This document shows, piece by piece, positions 6,986 to 50,099 of a DNA stretch of 52,467 nt. The notes under the pieces are model-generated. The model searched no databases. It saw only the letters and a program-made list of their open reading frames with translations, and had not been told where the DNA came from. Both the position numbers and the translations under genes were made by a program. Source of the stretch: a virus; the IMG/VR virus record IMGVR_UViG_3300017741_002088, positions 1-52,467 of that record; one strand, written 5' to 3'. Positions within the stretch are counted from its first letter, which is position 1. Each line of letters starts with the position of its first letter.

Positions 6986-7501
6986 ATGGATAATCATGTA
7001 TTCGTTGATGCTTATTTCACTAACAATGAAAGAAGCGTTGTAGAGACAATTTGGTATTCGGAAAGCGAAGATGTTTACAGATCTCATTCTATTGTTGCTG
7101 AAGAAAGTGAAGCAGATTGGATCAAACTATTAGAAACAGTTTCGTTGGATGATTTACACGAACGAACTTATAAAAAGATCGCAGAAGCAAACGAAGAATA
7201 TAAAGAAACTCTAATTGACATTGCAAATAACGATGGTAATGGATGGATCGCCTATAAAGACGACATAAACAGGGATGCTTTAAAAGTGCTCATGAACGTT
7301 ATTTTCGATGAAAACTTATCTGAATCAGATGGTGATGCTAATAAAGAAAAACTGTTTTTGTATAAAATGGAATTCTTTGAAAGAGATTTTGTTAAGAAGT
7401 CAACCAACAAAGAACTGAAACGAAATCTCAGAAAAGCAAAGTCTATGATCGAAGCAACGCAAATTGCTTGTCTTTTATATAATGAATCAGAGTTTTCGTA
7501 A
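6986..7501 (+). CDS. Conserved-looking hypothetical protein closing the left tail cluster
   Basis: A 171-residue acidic, mostly helical protein without signal peptide or membrane segment. It is rich in Glu, Asp and Lys (a DDINRDALKVLMNVIFDENL helix near residue 90). Its last 15 bases overlap the end of the convergent radical SAM gene, so this junction marks the edge of the reverse-strand island. I do not recognise the family. Possible roles include a tail assembly chaperone, but nothing in the sequence shows this. Confidence 0.55.
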   Translation: MDNHVFVDAYFTNNERSVVETIWYSESEDVYRSHSIVAEESEADWIKLLETVSLDDLHERTYKKIAEANEEYKETLIDIANNDGNGWIAYKDDINRDALKVLMNVIFDENLSESDGDANKEKLFLYKMEFFERDFVKKSTNKELKRNLRKAKSMIEATQIACLLYNESEFS

Positions 7502-8674
7502 TTCATTTTTCAATTCTGGAACATGATCTAAAATATCAAACCCTCTAATTTTATTCATCTTATTAGTATAGTTCCAAACATCATATAACCAACTTTTGTA
7601 ACCTTTTTCTTCGTAATAACTTATCGGATCAAAAAAGTTTCTGAATGTGGCACGATCACCATAATAATGTTCTAATGGCATAAGTTTCCATAACTGTTCT
7701 TCAACGACTTCTTCAGGCAAATATAAAGGAGAACACCAAGATGGGTGGTGAACAATATTGTGACATTGCATCCATCTTGTGTATGGTTTGTCATGAAAAT
7801 ATTCAAAGATGCGATCTAAAGACCAAAAATTGTACAACGATATTGTAATCATGATTTGAGATTTTATACCAGTTTCTCCATATAAAATCTCCATATTCTT
7901 TGTTATTTTATCCCAATCACCACCTCTGATCCAATTGTAAATGTTTTCTGTACCATCTACCGAAACCATTGCTCTAAGGTTTTTTAACTTTTTGAAAATG
8001 GGTAAGTGTCTTTTTAGCAATCCTTGCATATTAGTTTGTAAATTGATGGTGCAGTCTGGGTTTGTTTCAGAAGCGACTTTCAAAAATTCAATGTGTTTTT
8101 GATCTGCAAGGGGATCTCCACCTTTCATATAAAAAATGTCTAGGTTAGGAATCAGTTTATTAATTTTCTCAGCGTCTTCTTCTGAGAATCTCCACAACTT
8201 ATGATTTACATGACCAAACTCTTTGTCATATTCTAACCACTGATTAGAATGCCTTCCGCTACACATCACACACATTTGATTACATATGTTTGATGCAGCA
8301 ATTTCCAAGAAACGGATTTTATTTTCACCACCACGTTCCCATTTCCAATCATATGTTCCTTTTTTTAAATTTGATCTATACGATTCAAATACAGTATTGT
8401 TACTTCTTTTTGCTGAACCAAAGCATGTGCTGCATGGATAAAAGTTTCCTTGTTCACCTTTATCATATGCATCCCAAACATCCTGATACTCTTCCACCCA
8501 CCACTTTTGAAGATCATCGATGTCAGATATATTCATTGCGGGTTTGAGTCTATTGCCGTTTCGACCAAAATTTCTCATTCTTGAATTGTCTTGGCAACAA
8601 AAGGTTATATTACCTGTGTTGGGTTCTATAGTAATTCCATGAAACGGAATGTAACAATTTTTATCTAAGTCCAA
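7487..8674 (-). CDS. Radical SAM protein (twitch/SPASM-like)
   Basis: A 395-residue protein. The radical SAM cluster motif CxxxCxxC is C131, C135, C138 (CNQMCVMC), followed by a GGDPL motif near residue 186 in the place of the usual GGEPL, which contacts SAM. Further cysteines at C7, C26, C27, C81 and C84 could ligand an auxiliary cluster; the CxxC pair at 81/84 is suggestive. It starts at TTG with an AAGGAA SD and overlaps the end of the upstream glycosyltransferase by 14 bases, as last gene of a reverse operon. The substrate is unknown. Its company (three glycosyltransferase-like proteins and a methyltransferase) suggests modification of a surface glycan, a tail protein or DNA. Confidence 0.8.
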   Translation of the reverse strand: MDLDKNCYIPFHGITIEPNTGNITFCCQDNSRMRNFGRNGNRLKPAMNISDIDDLQKWWVEEYQDVWDAYDKGEQGNFYPCSTCFGSAKRSNNTVFESYRSNLKKGTYDWKWERGGENKIRFLEIAASNICNQMCVMCSGRHSNQWLEYDKEFGHVNHKLWRFSEEDAEKINKLIPNLDIFYMKGGDPLADQKHIEFLKVASETNPDCTINLQTNMQGLLKRHLPIFKKLKNLRAMVSVDGTENIYNWIRGGDWDKITKNMEILYGETGIKSQIMITISLYNFWSLDRIFEYFHDKPYTRWMQCHNIVHHPSWCSPLYLPEEVVEEQLWKLMPLEHYYGDRATFRNFFDPISYYEEKGYKSWLYDVWNYTNKMNKIRGFDILDHVPELKNELRKL

Positions 8675-9431
8675 CTTCGAATTCCTTATTTACTTGATGA
8701 ATGAAATGTGCTCCATCAGTGTATTTTCTGACTTTTGCGTCGAGAATATAATTCCAAGATATACCTATGTCTATCATAGGAATATCATATTTCTCAATTA
8801 TGTAGGAAAAGAATGCCTCATTATTAGGTGTCCAAACTCGGGAAACTTGTTCAGGATATAGGTTATCTTCACATGCCTCTTTATACACCTCAAGGCAACT
8901 TTCGAATCTACCTATCCAATCAAACCTCTTTATAGATTCCTTAGACCCTAACACCACTCCTGTGTTTGCAACCTTCTCAGTTCCTGATAAATCATCAAGT
9001 AAAAGCATAGACTTTTTCAAAGCGCATTTAACCCATACACTCATGGGATGAAAATTATCGTCCTCGAGTTCCCACCTGAAATTTTTCTTATTGAATGCTC
9101 TATGTACATTATAAACACACATCTTAGTTGTATCAAAGTTTTCGAAAATGTTGATGTTAGTTTTTGGGATCACATCAAGATCTAAGTATAACACTTCATC
9201 ATATTCTTGTGAGAGTTCTTGCATCTTTATAAGTTTATAAAACTGAATATCGGCATAGGTTGTAACATCGGGAGTATAAACCATGTAATCAGCATTTGTA
9301 AATTTTGCATAATCACTTTGCCTTTTCTCCAGTTCACCTCTGTGCCTTTTAAATTGACTCTCTTTGTATGGAGTAACAGAATCATGAACTTCTGTTATGT
9401 CGTTCCAGACACTATATACTATTCTTTTCAT
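8661..9431 (-). CDS. Glycosyltransferase-like protein (GT-A, DxD)
   Basis: A 256-residue protein. The start is the ATG at 9431, preceded by a strong AAGGAG; an in-frame codon 21 bases upstream lacks this. The MKRIVYSVW start and the YLDLDVIP motif (DxD, metal and sugar-nucleotide binding) fit a GT-A fold related to GT8/capsular transferases. It resembles the neighbour at 9412-10329, which has MKRLIYSTY and YLDFDVVP, so the two are probably paralogues. It overlaps both neighbours. Donor and acceptor sugars cannot be read from the sequence. Confidence 0.65.
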   Translation of the reverse strand: MKRIVYSVWNDITEVHDSVTPYKESQFKRHRGELEKRQSDYAKFTNADYMVYTPDVTTYADIQFYKLIKMQELSQEYDEVLYLDLDVIPKTNINIFENFDTTKMCVYNVHRAFNKKNFRWELEDDNFHPMSVWVKCALKKSMLLLDDLSGTEKVANTGVVLGSKESIKRFDWIGRFESCLEVYKEACEDNLYPEQVSRVWTPNNEAFFSYIIEKYDIPMIDIGISWNYILDAKVRKYTDGAHFIHQVNKEFEVGLR

Positions 9432-10329
9432 ACCACTCCTTGATGTAGTCAAATCTTTTATTTACTACGTGTACAAACTCACTTCCTTTCGCTACATAAG
9501 GGAATCTTTCATTGAGTATGAAATGTTGCTTTCGTTCAAGTTTGTTGAGTTGAACTTCTTTTTGTTGCATCTTATAACTATACAATGTCTCGTTATCATA
9601 CCCAAACAGTGACTGAATGTACGGTGGCCAACCACCATTTACTTCGGTTACAAGTTCTTTCATCGTAGATAAGTCAAGATCAAATTCTCCAAAGTAATCT
9701 AACTTTTTTATTTGCTCAGAACTTGCTCCAACAATTCCTGTGTTGTATACATCATTATCACCAGAGAAACCCTCGTCAAGAAGCAATGCTCTTGCGTTCC
9801 ACCATTTTGCTCGTGGACTTCTTATAGAATTGGTCCTACCTTTCTCATCATACTTTTTACGCATTTCAGCAAAGAATGCTGGTTCTAATCCTTCAAGGTA
9901 ATTTTTAGGATCTTTCTCATGATTGACTCTACAAAGTATTCCTGAATCAAAATCCCACTCATCGAAAACATTACATTTTGTTAACGGAACCACATCAAAA
10001 TCCAAGTAAAGGATCTGATCATAAGATTTAGAGTATTCTACCATCAACCAATGTTTGTAAAAATTGATTATATCATACTCTGATATCCAAGGTTTATCTT
10101 CAAACCAGTCTTTAAAATGAGCATAGTGAGTACCATACCCAACAAACCTATATTCAACTCCGATGGACTCAGCATACTTTTTTTGCACGCTGATTAACCA
10201 GTCCTGATATTTAAGCATTAGGTTTGTAGTTTCTTTTGTTTTGAAATTACTCCACTCATCATCAGAATGATCTTTATCTATCGTAGAGTCTGAAATATTG
10301 ATGTATGTTGAATAAATTAATCGTTTCAT
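9412..10329 (-). CDS. Glycosyltransferase-like protein (GT-A, DxD)
   Basis: A 305-residue protein starting at the ATG at 10329, which overlaps the methyltransferase stop by four bases (ATGA). The DxD motif lies in LYLDFDVVPLTKCNVF. Aromatic residues and a C-terminal FVHVVNKRFDYI are shared with the 8661-9431 protein (FIHQVNKEFEV), supporting a duplication. Members of this fold transfer sugars from nucleotide donors. The phage also carries a nucleotide-sugar dehydrogenase and epimerase at 43091-44817 that could supply a donor. Confidence 0.65.
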   Translation of the reverse strand: MKRLIYSTYINISDSTIDKDHSDDEWSNFKTKETTNLMLKYQDWLISVQKKYAESIGVEYRFVGYGTHYAHFKDWFEDKPWISEYDIINFYKHWLMVEYSKSYDQILYLDFDVVPLTKCNVFDEWDFDSGILCRVNHEKDPKNYLEGLEPAFFAEMRKKYDEKGRTNSIRSPRAKWWNARALLLDEGFSGDNDVYNTGIVGASSEQIKKLDYFGEFDLDLSTMKELVTEVNGGWPPYIQSLFGYDNETLYSYKMQQKEVQLNKLERKQHFILNERFPYVAKGSEFVHVVNKRFDYIKEWYEKNSI

Positions 10330-10982
10330 CGAGCAATCACCATGTACCGATCCCACTCTCCTATTTTCAATGTGCCTTTATAAAGTATTTTCATCTTCGG
10401 CAATGTTTCTATGAAATGATCAACAGATGTGTGACAGTTAATATGACTGTCTACATCTACCATATTATTAGACTGCAAAGCAACAATCATATTTTCATTT
10501 TTCATCGACAAGACGCTAAAAAGATCTTCGTGGTCTATGTGTTCACATGCTGTACAAATTACGATTTTTTTCTCGTGGTTTCTTTTCTTATCTTCAAATA
10601 ATTCTAATCCATCCATAGCATCTTCATATTTTATGTTACTATGAACTCTGAGTTTTTTAGCAATCTTAATACAGACATCATCCAACTCGAAATTTATTAT
10701 CTCTTTGTCCCACCCATCCTCTACTAAAATGTGTGACATCAACCCATACCAAGACCCAATAATTAAAATCGAATTGTGATTATCTTCATAAAAAGGTTTG
10801 AGTTCTCTAGACAACCATTCTTTACAAGCGATCTGGCCAGTTGAGAAAGAATCAGTAATGTCTTTGATACGGAATAAATCGTAGTCAGGATCATATGCAG
10901 ATTTTTCAAATATGAATCTGAATATGTTCATGATCTTATCAAAGTATAATGGTGTCATGTATTTCATTCTCAAAAGTCCCAT
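10326..10982 (-). CDS. SAM-dependent methyltransferase-like protein
   Basis: About 218 residues. A class I methyltransferase motif I is seen as ILIIGSWYGLMSHIL near residue 73, with acidic motif II (FELDDVC) about 22 residues later and a VICTACEHI strand near residue 140. The start is uncertain: ATG at 10982, or ATG at 10967 giving five fewer residues. Both overlap the upstream glycosyltransferase gene. The protein is coupled to the next gene by ATGA. It may methylate a sugar, a small molecule or protein; no DNA-methyltransferase catalytic motif was seen. Confidence 0.6.
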   Translation of the reverse strand: MGLLRMKYMTPLYFDKIMNIFRFIFEKSAYDPDYDLFRIKDITDSFSTGQIACKEWLSRELKPFYEDNHNSILIIGSWYGLMSHILVEDGWDKEIINFELDDVCIKIAKKLRVHSNIKYEDAMDGLELFEDKKRNHEKKIVICTACEHIDHEDLFSVLSMKNENMIVALQSNNMVDVDSHINCHTSVDHFIETLPKMKILYKGTLKIGEWDRYMVIAR

Positions 10983-11490
10983 GTTCAAGTTTTTGATCCC
11001 AGATATAACGATCCATCCCCTTATATTTTCGAGTGTTGTAGTCTATATTTTTTGCAAAAATGTCCCAATAATTTGTATTCTTTCCGACAGTCCATGTCAT
11101 AATTGAACTGTTTAACATCGTTTCATAGGCATGAGTTTCCCAATACTTATCTTCTTTCCAATAGTCACAAACGAAATGCGGAACATCCCAGTTTATGTTT
11201 TCTAGTGAAGGGAAAGGAGAACTAATAATATCGATATCGAGATCAAACATGACGCACCGAGAACCATGTATAAAACTATCTCCAAATCCTGGTCTGAAAG
11301 CATGTAATTTATTCCACCACTTAGCGAGTTTCGGTTTATTAGGAATTGGAATACAGTCTATTATAACGTTTTCTGGATCTTCAGTAAAGCAATAAATTGG
11401 ATAATCTGTGTATTTTCTCAAACTTACTGCTTGTTGGTTTACGTCTTGTGCTGTATATTTCTTCCCGTGCTTCAATAATATAATGTTCAT
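10939..11490 (-). CDS. Glycosyltransferase-like protein, first gene of reverse island
   Basis: A 183-residue protein with the start MNIILLKHGKKYTAQDVN, a WWNKLHAFRPGF segment near residue 80 and a MFDLDIDI motif near residue 101 that fits the DxD of a GT-A-like fold. It is shorter than the other two and lacks much of a C-terminal domain. It is the promoter-proximal gene of the - strand island, separated by 69 bases from the divergent + strand fibre operon. No clear promoter or strong SD is visible for it, so how the island is transcribed is open. Confidence 0.6.
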   Translation of the reverse strand: MNIILLKHGKKYTAQDVNQQAVSLRKYTDYPIYCFTEDPENVIIDCIPIPNKPKLAKWWNKLHAFRPGFGDSFIHGSRCVMFDLDIDIISSPFPSLENINWDVPHFVCDYWKEDKYWETHAYETMLNSSIMTWTVGKNTNYWDIFAKNIDYNTRKYKGMDRYIWDQKLEHGTFENEIHDTIIL

Positions 11491-29835: not shown

Positions 29836-30229
29836 AATTATTGAGTGGAACCCAAGTGCAATGCTTGAGATTACACTAAACGAACCAGATGATTTTCTAA
29901 AAGTTCGTGAGACACTAACACGTATCGGTGTTGCGTCCCGAAAAGACAAGAAGTTATACCAGTCCTGTCATATTCTACATAAGCAGGGAAGATATTTCAT
30001 TGTACATTTTAAAGAGTTATTTCTCTTAGATGGAAAGAAGTCTAATCTTGAAGAGAATGATATCGCACGTCGTAATACTATCGCCACTCTTATGAGTGAT
30101 TGGGGATTGATTAGCATAGAAGGTTCGACTACAGAACCGCTTGCACCAATGCGACAAATCAAAATTATTCCTTACAAAGAAAAGCAGGAATGGGAGTTAT
30201 GTCCCAAGTATAACATTGGTAATAAATGA
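29822..30229 (+). CDS. regA: RegA translational repressor
   Basis: 135 residues if started at GTG 29822; the ATG at 29861 (MLEITLNEPDDFLKV) would give 122 residues, matching the T4 start. The core KDKKLYQSCHILHKQGRYFI near residue 40 and the end CPKYNIGNK match T4 RegA closely. RegA binds the start regions of many early mRNAs and blocks translation. The first gene downstream overlaps its last bases. Confidence 0.92.
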   Translation: MEQNKIIEWNPSAMLEITLNEPDDFLKVRETLTRIGVASRKDKKLYQSCHILHKQGRYFIVHFKELFLLDGKKSNLEENDIARRNTIATLMSDWGLISIEGSTTEPLAPMRQIKIIPYKEKQEWELCPKYNIGNK

Positions 30230-30866
30230 TATCCCATTTATCGAACTTGATATCGATATAGATTATGACAAACTATTAAGTGAATGGAAAGCAGTAGAAG
30301 ATAAATATTCTTTTGCCAAATATAAAACCAAATATTGGCAGGTCAGAAGAAAATATGCTAAAGCATGGTCAGGAATCTCATTAGTAGGATCAGATGGTGA
30401 CTTATACTCTGATATGTACGAAGGTGATTCTTCTGCGGCATCTAAGACTGAACTGAGAGATGTTTGTCCATATTATTATGAACTGATATCAAAACTTGGA
30501 GGAGATGGTTTTAGAGCAAGGATTATGAGGATTTCACCAAAGGAATCCTTGGTATGGCATAGTCATGTACAAGAACACAGGCAACCCGAATGGCAACTAA
30601 CTTGCCAGATTCCGATTGTCATGCCAAATGATTTTGAATATTGTGTTTTACATAAAGATGAATTTAGATGGTGGAAAAGGTTTCATAGACCAGATTGGTT
30701 AAAGAGAGTCTGGCGAAAAAAACTTGATGTTGGTAAGGCATACATTTTTAATTCTTACCACTATCATAACGTGTACAACTACAGTAATGAATACAGGGTT
30801 ACTTTGATGTTGTACTTAGATTTAAGAGATCCAAAAGTTCGCGATTTGATTGAAAGAAGTTTATAA
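30216..30866 (+). CDS. 2OG-Fe(II) oxygenase-like (aspartyl hydroxylase family)
   Basis: About 216 residues from TTG at 30216; the frame is open back to 30141, so the start is uncertain and no good SD is seen. The C-terminal half has WHSHVQEHRQPEW (first metal His), then GKAYIFNSYHYHNVYN (second His) and EYRVTLMLYLD (2OG-binding Arg). This two-histidine layout is that of aspartyl/asparaginyl beta-hydroxylases. The substrate is unknown. The next gene starts at its stop (TAATG), which suggests a shared function with the riboflavin-kinase-like protein only by position. Confidence 0.55.
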   Translation: MVINDIPFIELDIDIDYDKLLSEWKAVEDKYSFAKYKTKYWQVRRKYAKAWSGISLVGSDGDLYSDMYEGDSSAASKTELRDVCPYYYELISKLGGDGFRARIMRISPKESLVWHSHVQEHRQPEWQLTCQIPIVMPNDFEYCVLHKDEFRWWKRFHRPDWLKRVWRKKLDVGKAYIFNSYHYHNVYNYSNEYRVTLMLYLDLRDPKVRDLIERSL

Positions 30867-33618: not shown

Positions 33619-33647
33619 TTTACTTCTCACTGAGAATGTGATATAAT
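33619..33647 (+). promoter_or_regulatory. Promoter for DNA polymerase
   Basis: TTTACT at 33619-33624, 17-bp spacer, TATAAT at 33642-33647 with TGA before it. Transcription would begin near 33654; the leader holds ATGGAGGTG. Confidence 0.75.
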
Positions 33648-33669: not shown

Positions 33670-36198
33670 ATGAGTGCATTTTACACATCGGTTGTTCGTT
33701 ATGGCAACAATTTTCTCTATCGTGGTTACGATGGGAATGGAAAACGAGTAACGAAGAAAGAAACATTTAAACCGACGCTATTTACTCCTACACAAAAAGA
33801 TGAGGGGTGGCGCGGTTTAGACGGAACTCGGATTGCACCTATTGAATTCGAGACGATGCGTGAAGCAAAAGAATGGTCAGAGCAATATAAAGATGTTGCT
33901 GACTTTCGCATATATGGTTCGTCTAATATGACGCATCAATACATCACCAAGAAATTTAAATATGATATCGAGTTTGATCGTGACCTGATTAACGTCATGA
34001 CAATTGATATTGAGACAGAGTATGAGGGTGGGTTTCCCGATCCCTCTGTCGCTGATCAACAAGTTCTCGCCATCACCGTAAAGTCAAACAAGAGTGATCT
34101 GTTTTGGGTTTGGGGATATGGCGATTATGACACTGAGAAAGCACTTATCAAACCAGTTCGCTATATCAAATGTGAAGACGAGTGGGATCTTCTTTTAAAG
34201 TTTCTTGATTTTTTCCAAGATCCTAGTAAGTGCCCAGATGTTATTACAGGTTGGAACGTTCGCTTCTTTGATATTCCATACCTTGTGAATCGCGTCTCAA
34301 AAGTTCTAGGCATTGAGCAAGCGAAAAAGTTCTCTCCTTGGGGAATGGTTGACTATCATAAGATCAAACGTATGAACCGCGAAGAAGAGGTGTATGAACT
34401 TCGCGGAATACAAACTCTTGATTATCTTGAATTGTTTCAAAAGTTTGGTTATGCCTATGGCAAACAAGAGTCATATAAACTTGATCACATCGCCTATGTC
34501 GTCCTTGGTGAAAAGAAACTATCATACGAAGAATCTGGTTCACTTCGTAATTTGTATAAAGATGACTTCCAAAAATATATTGACTACAACATGAAAGATG
34601 TTGAGTTGGTTGATCGCATTGAAGCAAAGATGGGGTTGATCACTCTCGCTATGACTGTTGCCTATCGTGGTGGTGTGAACTATCAAGACACCTTTGGTGT
34701 TACATCGATATGGGAAAGCATCATCTATCGTAAACTGAATCGCGATAAAGTTGTTCCGCCATTCCATAATAGTGTGAGTCAGAAGAGCGCAAAGTTTGCT
34801 GGTGGGTTTGTTAAAGAACCACAGGTCGGTAGACACGACTGGGTCGTTTCTTTTGACTTGAACTCTTTGTATCCTAATATTATTGTTCAATGGAATATGT
34901 CTCCTGAAACTATCGGTAAGATGCCATATGATAGAGTGACTGGTGGTGTTGACTTCTACTTAAACTTCCACGGAAGTGAGTCTGATCCTATGCATCCCGC
35001 CCAGCGTGAACGTGATGTAACAGTTGCCGCTAATGGTACAACATACCGTAAAGATGTTGACGGTGTCGTGCCAGCAACTATTATAGACTTCTATGATGAT
35101 CGTCGGTCAGCAAAGAATCAGATGCTCGCTGCTGAACAGGCATATGAAAAGAATAAATCTTACGAGTTAGAAAAACAAATCAACACTTTACATAACCAGC
35201 AGATGGCGATTAAAATTCTTATGAACTCTCTCTATGGTGCACTCGGTAATCAATTTTTCAAATATTTTGATCTTGATGTTGCTGAGGGTGTAACGTTGAC
35301 AGGTCAAATGGTTATTCAGTGGGCAGAGCGGTCGATCAATAATGCTATGAATGGTTTGATGAAAACTGAAAAAGATTATGTGATTGCGATTGATACCGAC
35401 TCTTTGTATATTGACTTTGGTCCAATGATTGAGAAACTAAAACCGAATGATCCAGTAAAGTTCCTCGATAAAATTTGCAAAGATCATTTCGAACCTATCC
35501 TTGAAAATGCATACAAAGATCTCTATGGTAAACTAAACTGCCACAAACCACGTATGGAGATGGCACGTGAAGTTATCGCTGATCGTGGTATCTGGACAGC
35601 AAAGAAACGTTATATCCTAAACGTCCACAACAGTGAGGGTGTCCAGTATGATGAACCGAAACTCAAGATCATGGGCATTGAGGCAATCAAGTCATCAACA
35701 CCAGAGGTGGTACGAGCAAAGTTTAAGGAAGCATTCAAGATTATCATAGGTGGGTCTGAGTCAGACACTCAAGAGTTTATCCAGCAGTTTAAAAGAGAAT
35801 TCAAATCACTTCCTCCAGAATCTGTCGCCTTTCCACGATCTGTGTCAAACATCACTGACTGGCATGATCGTAAACTTATTTACAAGAAGGGAACACCCAT
35901 TCACGTTCGTGGATCTCTTTTGTATAATAAGTATCTAAAAGAATACAAACAAACTCAAAAATACGAACTGATCGAGAATGGCACTCGCATCAAGTTTTGT
36001 TATTTAAAAATGCCAAACACAATCAAAGAAAACATCGTTGCCTTTCCTGACGTTCTCCCTGAGGAGTTTGGATTGCATCGTTTCATTGATTATGATCTAC
36101 AGTTCAATAAAACATTTGTTGAACCACTTAAACTTATTCTTGACGCCATTGACTGGACTGTCGAGGAGCAAACTTCTTTGGAGGATTTCTTTGCCTAA
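33670..36198 (+). CDS. 43: gp43 family B DNA polymerase
   Basis: 842 residues. The 3'-5' exonuclease domain has ExoI TIDIETEYEGG near 114 and ITGWNVRFFDIPYL near 195. The polymerase domain has motif A SFDLNSLYPNIIVQW near 394, motif B KILMNSLYGALGNQFF near 513 and motif C AIDTDSLYIDFG near 574. Slightly shorter than T4 gp43 (898). It replicates the phage genome with clamp gp45. Own promoter and strong SD (GGAGGTG). The last bases overlap the MazG-like gene. Confidence 0.95.
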   Translation: MSAFYTSVVRYGNNFLYRGYDGNGKRVTKKETFKPTLFTPTQKDEGWRGLDGTRIAPIEFETMREAKEWSEQYKDVADFRIYGSSNMTHQYITKKFKYDIEFDRDLINVMTIDIETEYEGGFPDPSVADQQVLAITVKSNKSDLFWVWGYGDYDTEKALIKPVRYIKCEDEWDLLLKFLDFFQDPSKCPDVITGWNVRFFDIPYLVNRVSKVLGIEQAKKFSPWGMVDYHKIKRMNREEEVYELRGIQTLDYLELFQKFGYAYGKQESYKLDHIAYVVLGEKKLSYEESGSLRNLYKDDFQKYIDYNMKDVELVDRIEAKMGLITLAMTVAYRGGVNYQDTFGVTSIWESIIYRKLNRDKVVPPFHNSVSQKSAKFAGGFVKEPQVGRHDWVVSFDLNSLYPNIIVQWNMSPETIGKMPYDRVTGGVDFYLNFHGSESDPMHPAQRERDVTVAANGTTYRKDVDGVVPATIIDFYDDRRSAKNQMLAAEQAYEKNKSYELEKQINTLHNQQMAIKILMNSLYGALGNQFFKYFDLDVAEGVTLTGQMVIQWAERSINNAMNGLMKTEKDYVIAIDTDSLYIDFGPMIEKLKPNDPVKFLDKICKDHFEPILENAYKDLYGKLNCHKPRMEMAREVIADRGIWTAKKRYILNVHNSEGVQYDEPKLKIMGIEAIKSSTPEVVRAKFKEAFKIIIGGSESDTQEFIQQFKREFKSLPPESVAFPRSVSNITDWHDRKLIYKKGTPIHVRGSLLYNKYLKEYKQTQKYELIENGTRIKFCYLKMPNTIKENIVAFPDVLPEEFGLHRFIDYDLQFNKTFVEPLKLILDAIDWTVEEQTSLEDFFA

Positions 36199-38907: not shown

Positions 38908-38936
38908 TTTGCATAAATACCAGATTATGATATAAT
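38908..38936 (+). promoter_or_regulatory. Promoter for the TET/JBP operon
   Basis: TTTGCA at 38908-38913, 17-bp spacer, TATAAT at 38931-38936 with TGA before it. The start would be near 38943; ACAGGAGA lies before the ATG at 38956. Confidence 0.7.
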
Positions 38937-38955: not shown

Positions 38956-40311
38956 ATGAGTAATTTCGAAGTAACAACAGTCGATGGCGTGAGAACTATA
39001 ACCGCCAAAAAGAAATTTGATTGTGAGCATCTACTCAATGAGTTTATGACTGACGATCATTATGACATCGTGATTGATGGCGATACAGATTTTTATGCTC
39101 CACCTATTGCAACAATTGATGGTGCATTCAATAATGAATCTAATCTAGGATTTCGTTTTCGTAAAAACGTTTTCACCAAAGAAGAAATGGAAGGTGCGTA
39201 TGAAGGTTTGTTAGATGCAGCGACATCAACAAACAACCGTGGCACTTCAACTGGTCAAATTGGTGTACAACGTCAAGGAAACCGCGATTGGGTTTATCCG
39301 TGGCAGTTTGATATTATGAAAATGATCCAGCATGGACGTCTTGATGATAAAACTCCACAGGATGTGATGGATGAATATGTTGCTAAGTGGGGTGATCTAG
39401 AGTTTCATTGGGATAAACGTGGTGCTCTTTGGCATCGTGGTAAAATCACCCAAGCAGGATATGACTATGATAATTTCTTTATGAATCAATTCGAATCAGG
39501 ATTGACTTCAGAAAAGATCGCTGAACTTAAAACGTTCATCCCAGATACTATGTACACCGCAAGTATCTACTCAGGAATCGCAGGTTTCTATGATCGTTAT
39601 CCTCGGATCCCATATGGTCGTGCAACTAACTTTACCGAATCAAATATGGATAAGTTTGCGAAAGCATACCCATATATGCGTAGACTGAATGCTTTGTTTG
39701 CTGAACTTGTTCCTCAACGATATGCTAAACAAAAGAAAGTCGCTGAGTCAATTGACAAACGATTCGTTGTTGCTGAGGATACTGCATTCTCAACTATTAC
39801 AGTCAACAAGAACTATCGTACGACTGCGCATCGAGATGGAGCAAACTATACTCCTGGATTCTCTAACCTGTCAACAGTGACTAAAGGTGACATCGGTTGG
39901 GAAGGTGGACTGTTTGTTCTTCCGGAATATCGTGTTGCTATCAACTTGCGTCCTGGTGATGCTCTATTGGTTGATAACGCTGGAATCATTCATGGTAATA
40001 CTGAAATGATCCCACCATCAGGTTTGGACATTGAAGATATGGAACGCATCTCTATGGTGTCATATATGCGTGACGGTATGCAGTCTCTTCGCTCAAAAGA
40101 ATATGAAGATGCTCGTCGCGAATATGTTACCGATCGTTCACGCAACAAAGATCACCCACTATGGCGTGAACGTTGGAATGGTGTGTCCGAAGGTATGTGG
40201 GCAGAAGATGAATGGTTAGAATTTCTTAATTCTAAAAACTTAACAGACGAAGATGGTGTAGTCGGGACTGCAAAAACTGATTCTCCCAACTCATTAGAGG
40301 AATTCTTCTAA
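38956..40311 (+). CDS. TET/JBP-like 2OG-Fe(II) dioxygenase
   Basis: 451 residues. The double-stranded beta-helix core is at about 278-372. It has VNKNYRTTAHRDGANYTPGF with the HxD metal pair H292/D294, then GGLFVLPEYRVAINLRPGD, a second metal His in IIHGNTEM (H346) and R364 in RISMVSYMR for 2-oxoglutarate. This spacing and the NKNYRT..HRD..GFSN block are those of TET/JBP enzymes, which hydroxylate 5-methylcytosine or thymine in DNA. The N-terminal 270 residues and acidic C-terminus are phage-specific. First gene of an operon of overlapping genes with base-modification-like neighbours. The target base is not known. Confidence 0.75.
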   Translation: MSNFEVTTVDGVRTITAKKKFDCEHLLNEFMTDDHYDIVIDGDTDFYAPPIATIDGAFNNESNLGFRFRKNVFTKEEMEGAYEGLLDAATSTNNRGTSTGQIGVQRQGNRDWVYPWQFDIMKMIQHGRLDDKTPQDVMDEYVAKWGDLEFHWDKRGALWHRGKITQAGYDYDNFFMNQFESGLTSEKIAELKTFIPDTMYTASIYSGIAGFYDRYPRIPYGRATNFTESNMDKFAKAYPYMRRLNALFAELVPQRYAKQKKVAESIDKRFVVAEDTAFSTITVNKNYRTTAHRDGANYTPGFSNLSTVTKGDIGWEGGLFVLPEYRVAINLRPGDALLVDNAGIIHGNTEMIPPSGLDIEDMERISMVSYMRDGMQSLRSKEYEDARREYVTDRSRNKDHPLWRERWNGVSEGMWAEDEWLEFLNSKNLTDEDGVVGTAKTDSPNSLEEFF

Positions 40312-40907
40312 TGTGCGCAGTCCTTGGGGTCTCGGGAAAGATCGACAGTCAAGTGATCCGTCGACTTTTTCTCGAGTCCCAGATTCGTGGTAGGCATGCC
40401 ACAGGAGTATCGTACTACAAGGAAGGCAAAGTTCATACGATAAAAGAACCTTTGCCTGCCGAGAAGTTTTTAGAGAAACACGACCCAAAAGATTGGTACG
40501 AGGGAGATGAAATTGTTATGATTGGACACTGTAGATATTCTACATCTGATCTTGAATTCAATCAACCCATCGCTAATGATCAATCAAGCATTGTACATAA
40601 CGGTGTGATCTCACAAGAGATGCCTGACCGTTGGAAACAACTGTACAATATTGATTGTGAAACTCGTAACGATACGGAACTTCTTTTCCATAGTAGTCCA
40701 GAAGATTGGCCAGATGCATCTATTGCTGCAGTTTTTCTTACAGGAAAAGAAATGACGTGGACTCGTAATGGAAAACGACCTTTATGGTTTACTTCTCTTG
40801 AAGAATGTGATATAATAACTTCTACAAATGACATTGCAGTTCGTGCTGGTTTATCGAACTCAGTCAAGACATATTATGACGGAAACGATCTACAAAATGA
40901 TTATTGA
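40311..40907 (+). CDS. Class II glutamine amidotransferase domain protein
   Basis: 198 residues beginning MCAVLG; Cys2 becomes the N-terminal nucleophile after Met removal, as in GATase type 2 enzymes. GRHATGVSYY, MIGHCRYST near residue 68 and IVHNGVIS near 98 are the usual Arg/Gly/Asn substrate-binding and oxyanion motifs. There is no synthetase domain, so ammonia would be passed to a partner. It begins at a TAATG join with the dioxygenase and is followed by a GNAT, suggesting that a nitrogen is added to a modified base. That is inference. Confidence 0.75.
   Translation: MCAVLGVSGKIDSQVIRRLFLESQIRGRHATGVSYYKEGKVHTIKEPLPAEKFLEKHDPKDWYEGDEIVMIGHCRYSTSDLEFNQPIANDQSSIVHNGVISQEMPDRWKQLYNIDCETRNDTELLFHSSPEDWPDASIAAVFLTGKEMTWTRNGKRPLWFTSLEECDIITSTNDIAVRAGLSNSVKTYYDGNDLQNDY
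40788..40817 (+). promoter_or_regulatory. Internal promoter before GNAT gene
   Basis: TTTACT at 40788-40793, 18-bp spacer, TATAAT at 40812-40817 preceded by TGTGA. It lies inside the amidotransferase gene, 80 bases before the GNAT ATG. Confidence 0.5.
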
Positions 40908-41553
40908 GAAAATTGATCAACAAGAACTTGAGGATACTCTTGCTCGTAAATTAGAAGAGAATGATGGCGCCAAACTAAACAACATGAATGGTTTGTATCA
41001 TTTGAAACAAACATGTTATGAGTGGGGCATGGAAAACAACTGGCAATCTCCCAGAGCGCAGCAGTGGGTAGCACGCAATGATGAAGGTACTATCATGGGC
41101 GGCACATTTATCACTGTCACCTCGCGCAAACCAGTTCATGTCACCTTTCGCCACATCTTTCTATTTGAAGAAGCAAGAGGTCATGGTGTCGCAGAGACGC
41201 TGTACAATTGGCGGTATCGCTGGGTCATTGAAAACACCCAGTGTAGACGTGTCAGATTGTTTGCGAATAAACCTGCGACACCATGGCATAATAAATGCGG
41301 AATGCGTTTCTTAGGGATGAATAAAGCAAAACAACCTTTTACATATCTGCCTTTATTCGATTGCCCATCTATGCGTGACTATGGAGCAAAACTAGATTCA
41401 ATTGGTCCACGAGCAGCAATGGATATGGTAGAACCTGAAGTCACTAAGCAAGTCGAAAAGATTGTGAGTAAAGGTGGTCGTTGGTACACTCAAGAAGAAT
41501 TCAAGAGTGAATGGGGATCTGAACTAGAAGAAAGGTTTGAACCCTTTGCTTGA
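40897..41553 (+). CDS. GNAT acetyltransferase-like protein
   Basis: 218 residues from the ATG at 40897, overlapping the amidotransferase end by 11 bases. The GNAT core has the acetyl-CoA loop EEARGHGVAETLYNWRY near residue 97 (R/QxxGxG/A form), followed by VRLFANKPATPWHNKCGMRF, typical of strand 5 and the final helix. The N-terminus (about 60 residues) and C-terminal tail are charged. It would transfer an acyl group, possibly to an amine on a modified base given the neighbours. Confidence 0.65.
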   Translation: MIIEKIDQQELEDTLARKLEENDGAKLNNMNGLYHLKQTCYEWGMENNWQSPRAQQWVARNDEGTIMGGTFITVTSRKPVHVTFRHIFLFEEARGHGVAETLYNWRYRWVIENTQCRRVRLFANKPATPWHNKCGMRFLGMNKAKQPFTYLPLFDCPSMRDYGAKLDSIGPRAAMDMVEPEVTKQVEKIVSKGGRWYTQEEFKSEWGSELEERFEPFA

Positions 41554-42538
41554 TCGTCGCGAATTGTTTGTTCGATGGTATGGTTGGTCTCTTGAATACA
41601 AAGATGTTGATCCTGCAGTTTGGTTGACCAATTACCTGCATAAACGATACGAACATAATGAAGAACAACGATACTGGTTGGCGTGGTTATATGGAAACAC
41701 ATATTACCTGCCAACAAGTTGGGTCTTGATGAATGAGTTTCCTGACTTTGAACTTGCGACTTATGATAGAATAAAAGACTGGAACGACCACAACTATACG
41801 CGACTTCGATATCAAACTGACACCAAATGGTCAAAAGGTCATTTGCCTGAGATGTTTAAATCCTATAAAGAGATGATCGGTAACAAGACCCAAAAGGAAT
41901 TCTTTGATGGGTTTGATGGTTTCGATGATCTCTTTGATCATGTAAAAACTAAACAATTCAAATTCGGTAGATACTCAACTTGGTTTTATTTGCAACATCT
42001 AGAGGGAACCTGCGGCATGCGCCACATCAACCCGAAGACTTTGTTGTTAAATGATCGTAGTGGAAGTCGAAGTCATCGAAATGGATTGTGTATGGCATTG
42101 AAAAAAGATGACTGGTATGATAAAAAATTAGACAAAAGTCAGATAGATATATTAGAAGGAATGGGTGCTGATATCTTAACCGAGATGTCAGATCGTTTTC
42201 CGAAGCATAAGAATGAAGTGAATGCATTTACTATGGAAACTGCACTTTGTTCTTTTAAGAAGATCTTTCGTAAACATCACGGAAGATATCTCGGATACTA
42301 TCTTGATCGCCAAGCAGAGGAGATCACTAAAGTGTCTAAAGATGGTTGGAACGGTATTGAGTGGAATGTACTTTGGCAAGCAAGGTCAGAATCACTCGAT
42401 AAAAGATTAACATCTAAGGGTGGCATTATCAAAGACAAATTTGATACATTTGTCGATACTGGATCACTAGATAGGATAGAATGGATGTTCACAGATATCC
42501 AGAAAAGTCCTTCACCTTTAGACAATTTTATGATATAA
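41537..42538 (+). CDS. Thymine pyrophosphorylase-like protein (aGPT-PPlase2 type)
   Basis: About 333 residues from TTG at 41537; a TTG nine bases later is better spaced from AAAGG. The pattern EEQRYWLAWLYGNTYYLPTS near residue 42, LRYQTDTKWSKGHLPEMF near 91, SGSRSHRNGLCMALKKDDW near 176 and METALCSFKKIFR near 231 fits the family named alpha-glutamyl/putrescinyl thymine pyrophosphorylase clade 2. This family is linked to replacing the 5-hydroxymethyl of phosphorylated hmU in phage DNA. I recognise it from memory, without a search. It is flanked by GNAT and a P-loop kinase, the partners expected for that pathway. Confidence 0.55.
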   Translation: MNPLLDRRELFVRWYGWSLEYKDVDPAVWLTNYLHKRYEHNEEQRYWLAWLYGNTYYLPTSWVLMNEFPDFELATYDRIKDWNDHNYTRLRYQTDTKWSKGHLPEMFKSYKEMIGNKTQKEFFDGFDGFDDLFDHVKTKQFKFGRYSTWFYLQHLEGTCGMRHINPKTLLLNDRSGSRSHRNGLCMALKKDDWYDKKLDKSQIDILEGMGADILTEMSDRFPKHKNEVNAFTMETALCSFKKIFRKHHGRYLGYYLDRQAEEITKVSKDGWNGIEWNVLWQARSESLDKRLTSKGGIIKDKFDTFVDTGSLDRIEWMFTDIQKSPSPLDNFMI

Positions 42539-42539
42539 T
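42511..42539 (+). promoter_or_regulatory. Promoter for the P-loop kinase gene
   Basis: TTCACC at 42511-42516, 17-bp spacer, TATAAT at 42534-42539 with TGA before it, overlapping the end of the preceding gene. The predicted RNA start, 42546, is the A of the kinase ATG. Confidence 0.55.
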
Positions 42540-42545
42540 GATACT

Positions 42546-43094
42546 ATGAATAAATTACTCGCAATAATTGGTGCTCCAGGAACTGGTAAGACAACCCTCG
42601 TTCGTGAGTGGATGAAGTCACGAAAATGGTCAAAGGATAAACCAGTTGATCTTCTCGACACTCATGTATCGGACGATATTCGGTTGCTTGGTAAATATGA
42701 GCATGATTCTCTCTTCAGCGGTACAGATAAACTGTCTATGGCAGTACAACCGAAAGCAGTAGAATATCTAGACAACCCATCCCCTGTAACTATATTTGAA
42801 GGCGATCGACTGACTTCGATTAAATTCTTTGAAGCAGCGCAGTCAAAAGGATTTGAAATTAAAATCATTCAACTCACTGTTCCCGATGAAGTTAGAGAAC
42901 AACGTTACAAAGAACGTGGTTCAGAACAAAACCCAACTTGGTTGAATGGCAGATTGACAAAAGTTAAAAATGTTTCAAATGCCTTTTCCGGAAACCCTCT
43001 GTTCGATGAACCGAGCATAGTAGAGGAGTGTGAGCATAAAACTCCTGAAGATACAAAATCAATCATAACAATCATTGAGGATTTTATAAAATGA
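42546..43094 (+). CDS. P-loop kinase, candidate hmU DNA kinase
   Basis: 182 residues. Walker A is GAPGTGKTT at 9-17. Next come LLGKYEHDSLFSGTDKLSMA near residue 48, then TIFEGDRL near 81, and an LID-like basic stretch EQRYKERGSEQNPTWLNGR near 118. The FSGTDxLSMAVQP block is what I recall from phage 5-hydroxymethyluracil DNA kinases, which phosphorylate the base in the polymer before substitution. A nucleotide kinase role is the alternative. No SD precedes the ATG and the promoter suggests a leaderless mRNA. ATGA overlap with the next gene. Confidence 0.6.
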   Translation: MNKLLAIIGAPGTGKTTLVREWMKSRKWSKDKPVDLLDTHVSDDIRLLGKYEHDSLFSGTDKLSMAVQPKAVEYLDNPSPVTIFEGDRLTSIKFFEAAQSKGFEIKIIQLTVPDEVREQRYKERGSEQNPTWLNGRLTKVKNVSNAFSGNPLFDEPSIVEECEHKTPEDTKSIITIIEDFIK

Positions 43095-43900
43095 AGATAG
43101 CGATTATTGGACATGGGTTTGTTGGCAAAGCAGTAGATTATGGATTCTCCCATCCGGAGATCCAAAAGATTATTATCGATCCAATTTATGGGTCTAAGAT
43201 TGATAAACGAATTAAAAACTGCCAGTTTATATTTGTTAGTGTACCAACTCCTATGGGAGATGATGGTACGATTGATGACTCTATCCTTCGTGAAGTAATT
43301 AAAGACATCGAGAAGTATAGTCACAACTCGATTATCATTGTCAAAAGCACAGTCATCCCTGAAGTGATCGCTAACCTATCAGATCGTATCGTTTACAATC
43401 CAGAGTTTCTCACAGAGAAAAGCGCAAACGAACAGTTTGTAAATCCTGTGTTTCATATTCTAGGAGGGCATCCTGCTGACTGTACGATGGTCGCAGACTT
43501 CTACGATAAGTATTCGCTATGTAATCACACAGATTTTTATTGTATGACAATTGAAGAAGCATCCTTCACTAAGTATGCCATCAATTGTTTTCTAGCAACT
43601 AAGGTTCTTTTCTTTAATCAGTTGTATGATGCTGCATTAAAAGAAAACAATGTAAACTTCAGCGTTGTCGCAAAAACCGTTGGAGCAGACCCACGCATAA
43701 CACCATCCCATACAAAGGTGCCAGGATTTGATGGTAAACAGGGTTTCGGTGGTGCGTGTTTCCCCAAAGATGTGTCAGCATTTCTTGCTGCATATCCAGA
43801 GATGGGAATCCTTGATTTCGTAAAGAAAACTAATAATGACTATCGGAATCAATATGAAAAGGATTCTCGTGAAATAGAACAAAACATAGATTTTGCTTAA
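43091..43900 (+). CDS. Short UDP-glucose/GDP-mannose dehydrogenase
   Basis: 269 residues against 390-450 for cellular enzymes. The N-terminal Rossmann motif is IIGHGFVGKAV (5-15), then FVSVPTPMG near 55, and VKSTVIP with NPEFLTE near 91-113. Catalytic C223 lies in GFGGACFPKD. The C-terminal nucleotide-sugar domain is largely missing, as in other short phage forms. It oxidises a nucleotide sugar to the uronic acid with NAD. Translationally coupled to the kinase; an epimerase follows. Confidence 0.8.
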   Translation: MKIAIIGHGFVGKAVDYGFSHPEIQKIIIDPIYGSKIDKRIKNCQFIFVSVPTPMGDDGTIDDSILREVIKDIEKYSHNSIIIVKSTVIPEVIANLSDRIVYNPEFLTEKSANEQFVNPVFHILGGHPADCTMVADFYDKYSLCNHTDFYCMTIEEASFTKYAINCFLATKVLFFNQLYDAALKENNVNFSVVAKTVGADPRITPSHTKVPGFDGKQGFGGACFPKDVSAFLAAYPEMGILDFVKKTNNDYRNQYEKDSREIEQNIDFA

Positions 43901-43912
43901 TGGAGGCATTAA

Positions 43913-44074
43913 ATGTCAGCAACTCAAGAATGGATTAAAGAGCAGTTCACTAAAGATTCACCAAGAATCATTACTGAATATTCGTTACAAAAACAAGTCG
44001 ACGATCTTTTAACTCGAGTAAAACAACTTGAAACTGATATGGCGTATAGTGTGAAACCAGAGGAAAGAACTTGA
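43913..44074 (+). CDS. Small coiled-coil protein
   Basis: 53 residues with TGGAGG upstream. Residues 22-45 (EYSLQKQVDDLLTRVKQLE) form a heptad-repeat helix. Its TGA overlaps the TTG start of the epimerase. Function unknown. Confidence 0.55.
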   Translation: MSATQEWIKEQFTKDSPRIITEYSLQKQVDDLLTRVKQLETDMAYSVKPEERT

Positions 44075-44861: not shown

Positions 44862-45905
44862 ATGAGCATAATGGATAAACTGAAGAAAAACAGTAAGGTT
44901 TCGCACACCTCTGTTTTATCTGAATCAAAATTCTTTAACGAGAAAGATATGGTTCCAACAAACGTGCCTATGATGAATGTTGCATTGTCAGGTTCGCTTG
45001 ACGGAGGACTTGCTCCTGGACTAACAGTCCTTGCTGGTCCATCTAAACATTTCAAAACATCATTCGCCTTAATTATGGCAGCAGCATATCTTCGTAAGTA
45101 TGAAGATTCTGTAATTCTTTTTTATGATTCTGAGTTTGGTTCACCACAATCTTACTTTGAACAATATGGTATTGACACTGATCGTGTACTTCATACTCCA
45201 ATCACAAACGTTGAAGAATTGAAGTTTGATCTTATTGGTCAACTTGAAGGTCTTGAACGAAATGATAAAGTTGTCGTTGTCATCGACTCGGTCGGTAACT
45301 TAGCATCTAAAAAAGAACTCGAGGATGCAATCAATGAAAAATCAGTAGCAGATATGTCACGTGCAAAAGCACTTAAAGGTCTGTTCCGGATGAGTACTCC
45401 ATATCTTAATATGAAGAACATTCCATTGATTGCTGTTAATCACACATACAAAGAGATTGGACTGTTCCCTAAAGATATTGTCTCAGGTGGAACAGGTATC
45501 TACTACTCAGCGGATAACATCTGGATTCTTGGTAGACAGCAAGATAAAAAGAGTGGTGAGATTAAGGGATATCACTTTGTAATCAACGTGGAGAAATCGC
45601 GTTATGTCAAAGAAAAGTCTAAAATTCCTATTTCTGTTTCTTGGGATGGTGGGGTCTCTACTCATAGTGGTCTCCTCGATGTCGCTTTGGCAGGTAATTA
45701 TGTCGCTAAACCTAGCAATGGTTGGTATTGCCGTGTCGATCGAGATACTGGAGAACTTCTCGACCCAAAGGTTCGGGAATCAGATACACTCGAACCATCG
45801 TTCTGGGAACCAATCTTGGAGGGGACAGATTTCAAGAACTATGTCAACGAGAAATTCTCTATCGGTGGAACTATATCTAATGAACTCGAACTTGAAGAAG
45901 CATGA
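44862..45905 (+). CDS. uvsX: UvsX RecA-like recombinase
   Basis: 347 residues. Walker A GPSKHFKT at 59-66 is the UvsX form (T4 GPSKSFKS), with YDSEFGSP near 88, Walker B VVVVIDSVGNL near 124 and LIAVNHTYKEIG near 173. UvsX forms filaments on single-stranded DNA and drives strand exchange in recombination-dependent replication, with UvsY as mediator. The C-terminus is acidic. The end overlaps the next gene. Confidence 0.93.
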   Translation: MSIMDKLKKNSKVSHTSVLSESKFFNEKDMVPTNVPMMNVALSGSLDGGLAPGLTVLAGPSKHFKTSFALIMAAAYLRKYEDSVILFYDSEFGSPQSYFEQYGIDTDRVLHTPITNVEELKFDLIGQLEGLERNDKVVVVIDSVGNLASKKELEDAINEKSVADMSRAKALKGLFRMSTPYLNMKNIPLIAVNHTYKEIGLFPKDIVSGGTGIYYSADNIWILGRQQDKKSGEIKGYHFVINVEKSRYVKEKSKIPISVSWDGGVSTHSGLLDVALAGNYVAKPSNGWYCRVDRDTGELLDPKVRESDTLEPSFWEPILEGTDFKNYVNEKFSIGGTISNELELEEA

Positions 45906-49303: not shown

Positions 49304-49437
49304 TGAATAAAATTTTGAGAAGACTTGGATTGAAAGACGACTATGGTTATTGCGATATGTCCATTGTTGGGTTTATTGTTATATGGTCGTTTTTTCTTTA
49401 TGGTGTTTATATTGCGATCGGAGACTTAATTAAATGA
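49303..49437 (+). CDS. Small one-helix membrane protein
   Basis: 44 residues, joined to both neighbours by overlaps (TAATG before, ATGA with thyX after), which supports it as coding. A basic N-terminus (NKILRRLGLKDDYGYC) is followed by one membrane helix (MSIVGFIVIWSFFLYGVYIA). Function unknown. Confidence 0.6.
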   Translation: MNKILRRLGLKDDYGYCDMSIVGFIVIWSFFLYGVYIAIGDLIK

Positions 49438-50099
49438 ATGTTAGATTAATCAGTTATTCACAAACAGCGGAGAACCTACATGTCGGTGAAGATATCCAAG
49501 AACTCATTGCGTATTGTGCCCGTGTCTCGAACCCCTCGAACCAAACTAACCAAGAAACGTCCGAACGTTTATTATCCTATCTCGCAAAACACAAGCACTG
49601 GTCGCCTTTCGAGATGGTGTCTGCTTGCTTAGAGATTGAAACGACTCGTGATATTGCTCGTCAAATCCTTAGGCATCGTTCGTTTTCATTTCAGGAGTTT
49701 AGTCAGAGATATGCTAATCCTGTAGAAGATTTAGATTATGTTATGAGGGAAGCGCGACTACAAGATACGAAAAATCGTCAAAACAGTATTGTTACTGATG
49801 ATGCTGATTTACAACTAGAATGGTATAAGCAACAAGCAGAAGTTCAACTTGCCTCTAAAAAAGCATATCAATGGGCGATTGAAAATGGTATTGCTAAAGA
49901 GCAAGCACGTGCGGTGTTGCCCGAAGGTATGATGGGATCACGACTTTATATGAATGGAACCATCAGGTCTTGGATTCATTTTATTGAATTGCGCAGTGCT
50001 AATGGCACACAAAAAGAATGTCAGGATGTTGCCATTGCTTGCGCAAAAGCGATTACTGAGATATTCCCTCTTGCTCAAAAGTTCTTGGAGACAGAATAA
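49434..50099 (+). CDS. thyX: ThyX flavin-dependent thymidylate synthase
   Basis: 221 residues. The ThyX motif RHRSFSFQEFSQRYA begins at R80 (usual RHRxxSxNExSxRY, here with Gln for Asn). SPFEMVSACLEIETTRDIAR precedes it and ARAVLPEGMMGSRLYMNGTIRSW-type dUMP-binding residues follow near 160-180. It makes dTMP from dUMP using FAD, NADPH and methylene-folate. The flavin need fits the riboflavin-kinase-like gene at 30866. Confidence 0.93.
   Translation: MNVRLISYSQTAENLHVGEDIQELIAYCARVSNPSNQTNQETSERLLSYLAKHKHWSPFEMVSACLEIETTRDIARQILRHRSFSFQEFSQRYANPVEDLDYVMREARLQDTKNRQNSIVTDDADLQLEWYKQQAEVQLASKKAYQWAIENGIAKEQARAVLPEGMMGSRLYMNGTIRSWIHFIELRSANGTQKECQDVAIACAKAITEIFPLAQKFLETE

Follow-up and report, generated by a model that had tools for sequence, protein, structure and literature searches.

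A TET/JBP-led gene module of a T4-type phage, predicted to hypermodify thymine in DNA

A five-gene cluster led by a TET/JBP dioxygenase

We analyzed a linear virus record of 52 kb (IMG/VR record IMGVR_UViG_3300017741_002088; this whole stretch of 52,467 nucleotides is referred to as the window), a fragment from a T4-type phage, in which five consecutive open reading frames (ORFs) on the plus strand span positions 38956-43094. These encode a TET/JBP dioxygenase, a glutamine amidotransferase (GATase), a GNAT-fold acyltransferase, a protein similar to amino acid:DNA transferases (ADDT), and a P-loop kinase. An original prediction, made from the sequence alone, had described these genes as overlapping or nearly touching and as a candidate operon for hypermodification of a DNA base, and the coordinates, strand and junctions of the ORFs agree with that description. 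We consider it likely that they encode a post-replicative pathway of thymine hypermodification.

The first ORF (38956..40311, + strand) encodes a 451 amino acid 2-oxoglutarate/Fe(II) dioxygenase that matches Tet_JBP (PF12851; E = 2.4e-18) with 66.3 bits versus a curated cut-off of 34.9. Residues H292, D294, H346 and R364, which form the HxD...H iron ligands and the 2-oxoglutarate-binding arginine and had all been recognized in the original prediction, are invariant in 12 homologues of 26-80% identity, and the sole PDB matches of the TET profile are human TET2 entries, aligned across the HxD and H...R motifs. Orthologues that are 70-80% identical are present in IMG/VR. We propose this protein as a candidate 5-hydroxylase of thymine in DNA.

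The second ORF (40311..40907, + strand) begins at the last nucleotide of the TET gene and encodes a free-standing class-II (Ntn) glutamine amidotransferase/glutaminase of 198 amino acids (GATase_6, PF13522; E = 1.5e-9). The Cys2 nucleophile, R75, N97-G98 and D121 are invariant in 11 members, so that the active site is intact. The structural model (pLDDT 85.7) has a fold nearest to the glutaminase domains of GlmS and PurF, and structure comparison also showed a resemblance to the Ntn hydrolase EgtC. At 198 amino acids the protein is a glutaminase domain alone, and a fused synthase domain that would use the ammonia is absent. The frame of the third ORF (40828..41553, + strand) overlaps the end of the GATase gene; its first ATG lies at 40828, with alternative ATG starts at 40876 and 40897, and its product matches Acetyltransf_1 (PF00583; E = 3.5e-7). 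A profile of this GNAT matches GNATs at the equivalent position in other modules, and a tblastn search with it against isolates returned no match.

The fourth ORF (41537..42538, + strand) starts with a TTG codon that is preceded by AGAAAGG and overlaps the GNAT stop (41553). Its 333 amino acid product has no direct Pfam match at E<=1, PF18724 included; it matches phrog_3271 at 3.5e-55, and tblastn searches with it matched proteins annotated as alpha-glutamyl/putrescinyl thymine pyrophosphorylase (aGPT-PPlase) clade 2. Relatives in the same slot match the Pfam ADDT family at 3e-16 and 1.2e-21, and the 41537 protein is 56% and 30% identical to two PF18724-positive relatives (L069 and L006, respectively; L-numbers denote compared records). 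The AlphaFold2 model (pLDDT 90.5) is all-helical, and its best PDB matches are 8z2n and 8z2m, a phage 5-phosphomethyl-dU glycinyltransferase (probability 1.00, TM 0.61-0.64 over the target, E ~0.01, 9e-3), followed by 8-oxoguanine DNA glycosylases; against BFVD it matched amino acid:DNA transferase proteins (TM 0.85, E 7e-14). Based on this homology and modelled fold, we regard the 41537 protein as an ADDT-like transferase. PDB sequence searches with the ADDT, GATase and kinase returned nothing useful.

The fifth ORF (42546..43094, + strand) starts 7 nt past the ADDT stop, and its own stop overlaps the next gene (43091). It encodes a P-loop kinase of the Ploopntkinase3 family (PF18751; E = 3.3e-19), in which the P-loop residues and the GTDxxSMAV and EGDR motifs are conserved among 15 members. 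The original prediction had likened it to 5-hydroxymethyl-U kinase; the P-loop motifs and the pairing with ADDT speak for this likeness, but its best family is PF18751 and not the helical-domain 5-hydroxymethyl-deoxyuridine (5hmdU) DNA kinase family, to which it was not assigned. We therefore predict that it works like a 5hmdU DNA kinase while lying outside the family of that name. Four of the five proteins were placed directly by profile (Tet_JBP, GATase_6, Acetyltransf_1 and Ploopntkinase3) and the 41537 protein through its relatives and fold, and neither the latter, ADDT-like, nor the kinase, of the ADDT-adjoining PF18751, fell into an unrelated family.

Conservation of the module and exchange of cassettes beside TET

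The comparison drew on similarity-ranked samples of loci from IMG/VR. A scan with the single GATase protein returned nothing, and one based on a GATase alignment gave hundreds of matches, from which 80 loci were collected and reduced to 41 groups at 90% identity. TET is present in all 41 groups, and ADDT and the kinase in all 23 groups with complete flanks, 21 of which also have the GNAT and 18 an amidoligase-like gene (a weak assignment, its PF12224 score of 20.9 bits lying below the cut-off of 22). The order TET-GATase-(amidoligase)-(GNAT)-ADDT-kinase is kept in 22 of these 23 groups and permuted in one, and the window's own order, TET-GATase-GNAT-ADDT-kinase, is shared by five groups. The five-gene grouping is far beyond chance, and the suggestion that this exact set might be new on a T4-like marine phage gives way to that of a widespread conserved module.

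Among 49 TET records, ADDT was found in 23 and the PF18751 kinase in 22, with both in 21, and in nearly all related cassettes the two genes adjoin; a TET-associated glycosyltransferase (TAGT) was found in 16. Caulobacter phage Cr30 (L015) is the sole TET record with both ADDT and a TAGT-like glycosyltransferase, the latter below the cut-off. By class, ten groups carry GATase, ADDT and kinase, 13 other ADDT/kinase sets and 21 glycosylation-type cassettes, part of which (GT348 with UDP-galactopyranose mutase; c48 proteins) were assigned by neighbours or inspection and not by profile match, and five were left unassigned. In close relatives of the window, TET (70-80% identical) and the left-hand replication genes are fixed, as is the right-hand UvsX in the closest, and the genes between TET and UvsX vary. 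On the left, the T4-type DNA polymerase gp43 of the conserved replication block (33670..36198, + strand; phrog_262, E=0) is kept in L002, L003 and L005-L007; on the right, the UvsX recombinase (44862..45905, + strand) borders the variable cassette, with 82-85% identical UvsX proteins standing beside such cassettes in the relatives. On the TET tree the cassette class changes 18 times, versus 19.5 for shuffled labels, and changes this frequent indicate that cassettes are freely exchanged. Gene content would thus make TET a general handle-maker, beside which ADDT-kinase or TAGT cassettes alternate.

The GATase follows ADDT more closely. All GATase-linked ADDTs fall inside one well-supported clade of the ADDT tree, and the GATase is present in 10/10 members of one subclade versus 0/13 elsewhere (Fisher 9e-7, shared ancestry not corrected), the L063 GATase being recognized by reading the upstream frame. 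Both trees were built by a quick method and include long branches.

Further cassettes were observed beside TET. In L003:10473-14045, L007:7019-10591, L038:1953-5687, L081:8190-11580 and, on the reverse strand, L015 (Cr30):5789-11656, ADDT and the kinase lie on either side of a small HAD-like gene and a gene for myo-inositol-1-phosphate synthase (TIGR03450, 4e-59 in L003), which suggests that inositol is the group attached to DNA by these cassettes. In five groups an N6/N4-type DNA methylase (PF01555 5.9e-16; L048:11368-12030, with homologues in L050, L060, L067 and L085) lies between TET and the ADDT-kinase pair. The PF20691 TAGT cassettes (L002, L004, L011, L013, L008-L010 and others), some of which include sugar-nucleotide genes and none a C5-methyltransferase, suggest phage DNA with glycosylated, base-J-like 5-hydroxymethyluracil (5hmU).

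Target base, proposed pathway and rival explanations

The cytosine-C5 methyltransferase family (PF00145) is absent from the window, from all 49 TET records and from a set of 23 records (19 of them new). This search covered 69 records and ~3.05 Mb, including four complete isolate genomes (Cr30, DLP6, C48C1 and S-CBWM1; 139-168 kb) and contigs of 162, 152, 140 and 120 kb, and it detected the family in 10 of 14 control genomes. Of the 5-methylpyrimidines, thymine alone is seen to be made by these phages. The ThyA/hydroxymethylase family (PF00303) is likewise absent from the window and from all 23 larger TET records, mostly module carriers; ThyX, the flavin-dependent thymidylate synthase that would supply ordinary dTMP, is present in 12 of these 23 and in the window (49434..50099, + strand; PF02511 5.7e-45; phrog_85). 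Cr30 carries a PF00303 gene annotated as thymidylate synthase (3.9e-113).

Escherichia phage ZQ1 and Glutamicibacter phage Montesquieu, which have ADDT and no detected TET, carry PF00303; PF00303 is absent from Rhodococcus phage Tonitrus and Mycobacterium phage Fortunato (L195), which have TET, ADDT and kinase. The TET profile scan of isolates spanned the stretch around these genes, and genome-wide no close TET was seen in ZQ1 or Montesquieu. With PF00303 but no TET in the first pair and TET but no PF00303 in the second, the two enzymes appear to provide alternative ways into a single pathway. Since no C5-methyltransferase was found in the 69 records and no ThyA-type gene in the 23 larger TET records, and TET-less ADDT controls have the latter, TET probably hydroxylates thymine in DNA, in place of the nucleotide-level route. 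The original prediction had left T or 5-methylcytosine open as the oxidized base, of which T is now strongly favoured, and its argument for a post-replicative route, from ThyX and a missing hydroxymethylase, is strengthened by the larger relatives and the ADDT controls.

We propose that TET/JBP hydroxylates the 5-methyl group of T in phage DNA to give 5hmU, as motif and gene content suggest, and that the P-loop kinase, judging from its family and constant pairing with ADDT, would phosphorylate the new hydroxyl to 5-phosphomethyl-U. ADDT, whose DNA-glycosylase-like helical fold would flip the base out, would then swap the phosphate for a nucleophile, a role consistent with its family and fold, with nitrogen as the presumed attacking atom. 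We hold these three steps with good confidence.

For the fourth step we advance a tentative proposal, in which the GATase would free ammonia from glutamine for ADDT, as a two-protein analogue of PurF, to yield 5-aminomethyl-dU. In PurF, glutamine-derived ammonia displaces pyrophosphate from carbon, a reaction of the type that ADDT would carry out on the phosphate. The amine could then be acylated by the GNAT or, in relatives, by the ATP-dependent amidoligase, for instance to 5-acetamidomethyl-dU, and the finished base would mask the genome from host nucleases. The PurF-like fold and reaction, the partnership with one ADDT subclade and the amide-forming nature of GNAT and amidoligase led us to this product, which we put forward with considerable doubt. 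The GATase and GNAT had been expected to define the final group together; clade coupling makes the GATase more likely an ADDT partner than a late tailoring enzyme. The composite scheme, comprising TET entry, split PurF-like amination by GATase and ADDT, acylation by GNAT or amidoligase, and a TET that makes the handle for swapped amination, inositol and glycosylation cassettes, is correspondingly speculative.

It is quite possible that the route runs as above to 5-phosphomethyl-U and that ADDT then joins a free amino acid to the base, in the manner of PUGT and glycine, after which the GATase would amidate, hydrolyse or transglutaminate the attached amino acid and the GNAT and amidoligase would extend the product. 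The nearest solved ADDT is a glycinyltransferase, the GATase resembles EgtC, and other phage clusters, that of PaP3 among them, contain GATase-amidoligase pairs. However, among the 23 groups with full flanks the GNAT was undetected in two and the amidoligase in five, and in L094 both are missing from the stretch between GATase and ADDT, so that the genes constantly accompanying the GATase are ADDT, the kinase and TET. A PLP decarboxylase, a radical SAM enzyme and a flavin lyase are all absent from the module, which also counts against an attached amino acid.

Two readings would move the pathway away from thymine. A TET acting on 5-methylcytosine, with a hypermodified cytosine as product as in TET phages with C5-methyltransferases, would fit Burke et al. 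(2021), cited in PMC11347163, who reported activity of a phage TET in hypermodification of cytosine at C5; we judge it improbable, since none of the 69 records has a C5-methyltransferase and, where their products are known, ADDT and kinase families act on thymine derivatives. That the cassette targets RNA, protein or cell-surface sugars, with GATase, GNAT and kinase as unrelated auxiliary metabolic genes side by side, appears very improbable. Sugar-nucleotide genes do lie directly 3' (a dehydrogenase at 43091 and an epimerase at 44071), but gene order is near-invariant across the 23 groups, the ADDT fold resembles a DNA-base glycinyltransferase and DNA glycosylases, and the cluster sits within the replication block.

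Several points weigh against thymine hypermodification with GATase-derived ammonia. Because the window spans a 52 kb fragment, a missing gene could lie outside it. In L026, of the same ADDT subclade, the upstream gene is ParB-like and a GATase was not seen. With GATase and ADDT as separate proteins, free ammonia would have to travel through a channel or a contact between them, and the solved ADDT relative uses glycine, so that by analogy the nucleophile of the present ADDT could likewise be an amino acid. A phage TET with demonstrated activity acts on 5-methylcytosine in DNA, according to the citation of Burke et al. (2021) in PMC11347163. For none of these phages was a nucleoside analysis found.

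Related systems and the surroundings of the module

Work by Lee and colleagues from 2018 and 2022 reportedly places a kinase and ADDT/aGPT-PPlase on 5hmdU in phages M6, ViI and phiW-14. As in these phages, the window's kinase and then ADDT would act on a 5-hydroxymethyl pyrimidine in DNA, with tailoring enzymes after them; unlike in these phages, where a ThyA-type hydroxymethylase makes 5hmdU at the nucleotide level, TET would replace the hydroxymethylase, and the window has ThyX and, in addition, a GATase. In the characterized route, 5hmdU is incorporated, phosphorylated by the 5hmdU DNA kinase and then modified further (PMC6449724). Kinetoplastid base J, made by JBP1/2 and a glucosyltransferase (PMC6449724), offers the parallel of a TET/JBP enzyme that hydroxylates thymine in DNA, followed there by glucosylation, whereas phosphorylation and substitution are predicted here. 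Phage systems of TET, C5-methyltransferase and TAGT (PF20691; Burke et al., 2021) are reported to decorate a TET-made hydroxymethyl handle in a similar way, and close relatives of the window hold TAGT in the same slot; the window differs from them in lacking the C5-methyltransferase and in having kinase and ADDT instead of glycosylation. Carboxymethylcytosine is another recently described handle (PMC12783734).

Among cultured phages, Tonitrus has a five-gene system of ParB, TET, aGPT-Pplase2, 5-hmU kinase and a hypothetical protein (PMC11955845). It shares TET, ADDT, kinase and the absence of PF00303 with the window but showed no GATase or GNAT in the stretch scanned, and its TET and ADDT are distant matches to the profiles used here (2.7e-33 and 2.7e-5). 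Cr30, a complete genome, is also T4-like with TET, ADDT and a PF18751-like kinase, but a GATase was not found nearby, and an inositol-1-phosphate synthase and the TAGT-like gene lie between ADDT and kinase. Arthrobacter phage Ottawa (L018, 1-6904) has TET, kinase, GATase-like (8e-12) and amidoligase-like (1.5e-5) genes and no PF00303; it differs in that ADDT was not detected by profile in the stretch scanned, and its genome is 63.5 kb. In Fortunato a TET-like frame, not annotated as TET, starts at 431 (5e-27) between annotated genes 1 and 2 and adjoins ADDT and kinase.

TET/JBP clusters of such general type were predicted before (Iyer et al.). No description of the GATase-containing module was found in the literature searched, key papers lie outside that search, and its novelty is uncertain. 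The comparison offers strong evidence that hydroxylation of thymine in DNA by phage TET/JBP can stand in for the nucleotide-level hydroxymethylase as the entry to kinase and ADDT; such an activity, if true, would be useful for sequencing chemistry. It also names a widespread, chemically undefined module, with a specific ammonia-derived base as its predicted product, and Cr30, Tonitrus, Fortunato and Ottawa are cultured phages that bear on related questions.

An extended -10-like motif, TGATATAAT, lies 5' of TET (38928..38936, + strand), and further copies precede the GNAT (40808) and the kinase (42531). With such motifs inside the cluster, a single-transcript operon is not established. Plus-strand copies at 33639, 36575, 37770, 38928, 40808, 42531, 44826 and 50143, among others, are often just 5' of start codons (down to 7 nt, for the kinase gene), and are probable phage promoters with very short leaders. 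TGNTATAAT occurs 15 times in the window versus 3.9 expected, a count reached in 0/100 shuffles, and the T4 late promoter TATAAATA is about as frequent as expected by chance.

The sugar-nucleotide genes downstream were left out of the pathway because the epimerase (44071) accompanies both cassette types and the dehydrogenase is missing from every other TET group in the comparison. The dehydrogenase (43091-43900, + strand), which overlaps the kinase stop, has 269 amino acids versus ~380-440 for its profiles. A minus-strand block (7487-11490) includes a radical SAM protein (PF04055 5.4e-11) and a weakly GT8-like protein; the former (7487-8674) was rejected as a tailoring enzyme, being far off and, like the block, showing no linkage to the TET module. 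The T4-type genes recognized in the window through PHROGs are the sliding clamp, clamp loader, gp46/47, late sigma factor, UvsW-like helicase, gp43, replicative helicase and ThyX, with UvsX (by homology) and RegA also present. Finally, positions 30141-30866 (+ strand) encode an aspartyl/asparaginyl beta-hydroxylase (PF05118 1.3e-9), a core gene of pelagimyophages (PMC7029224), to which the window may belong.

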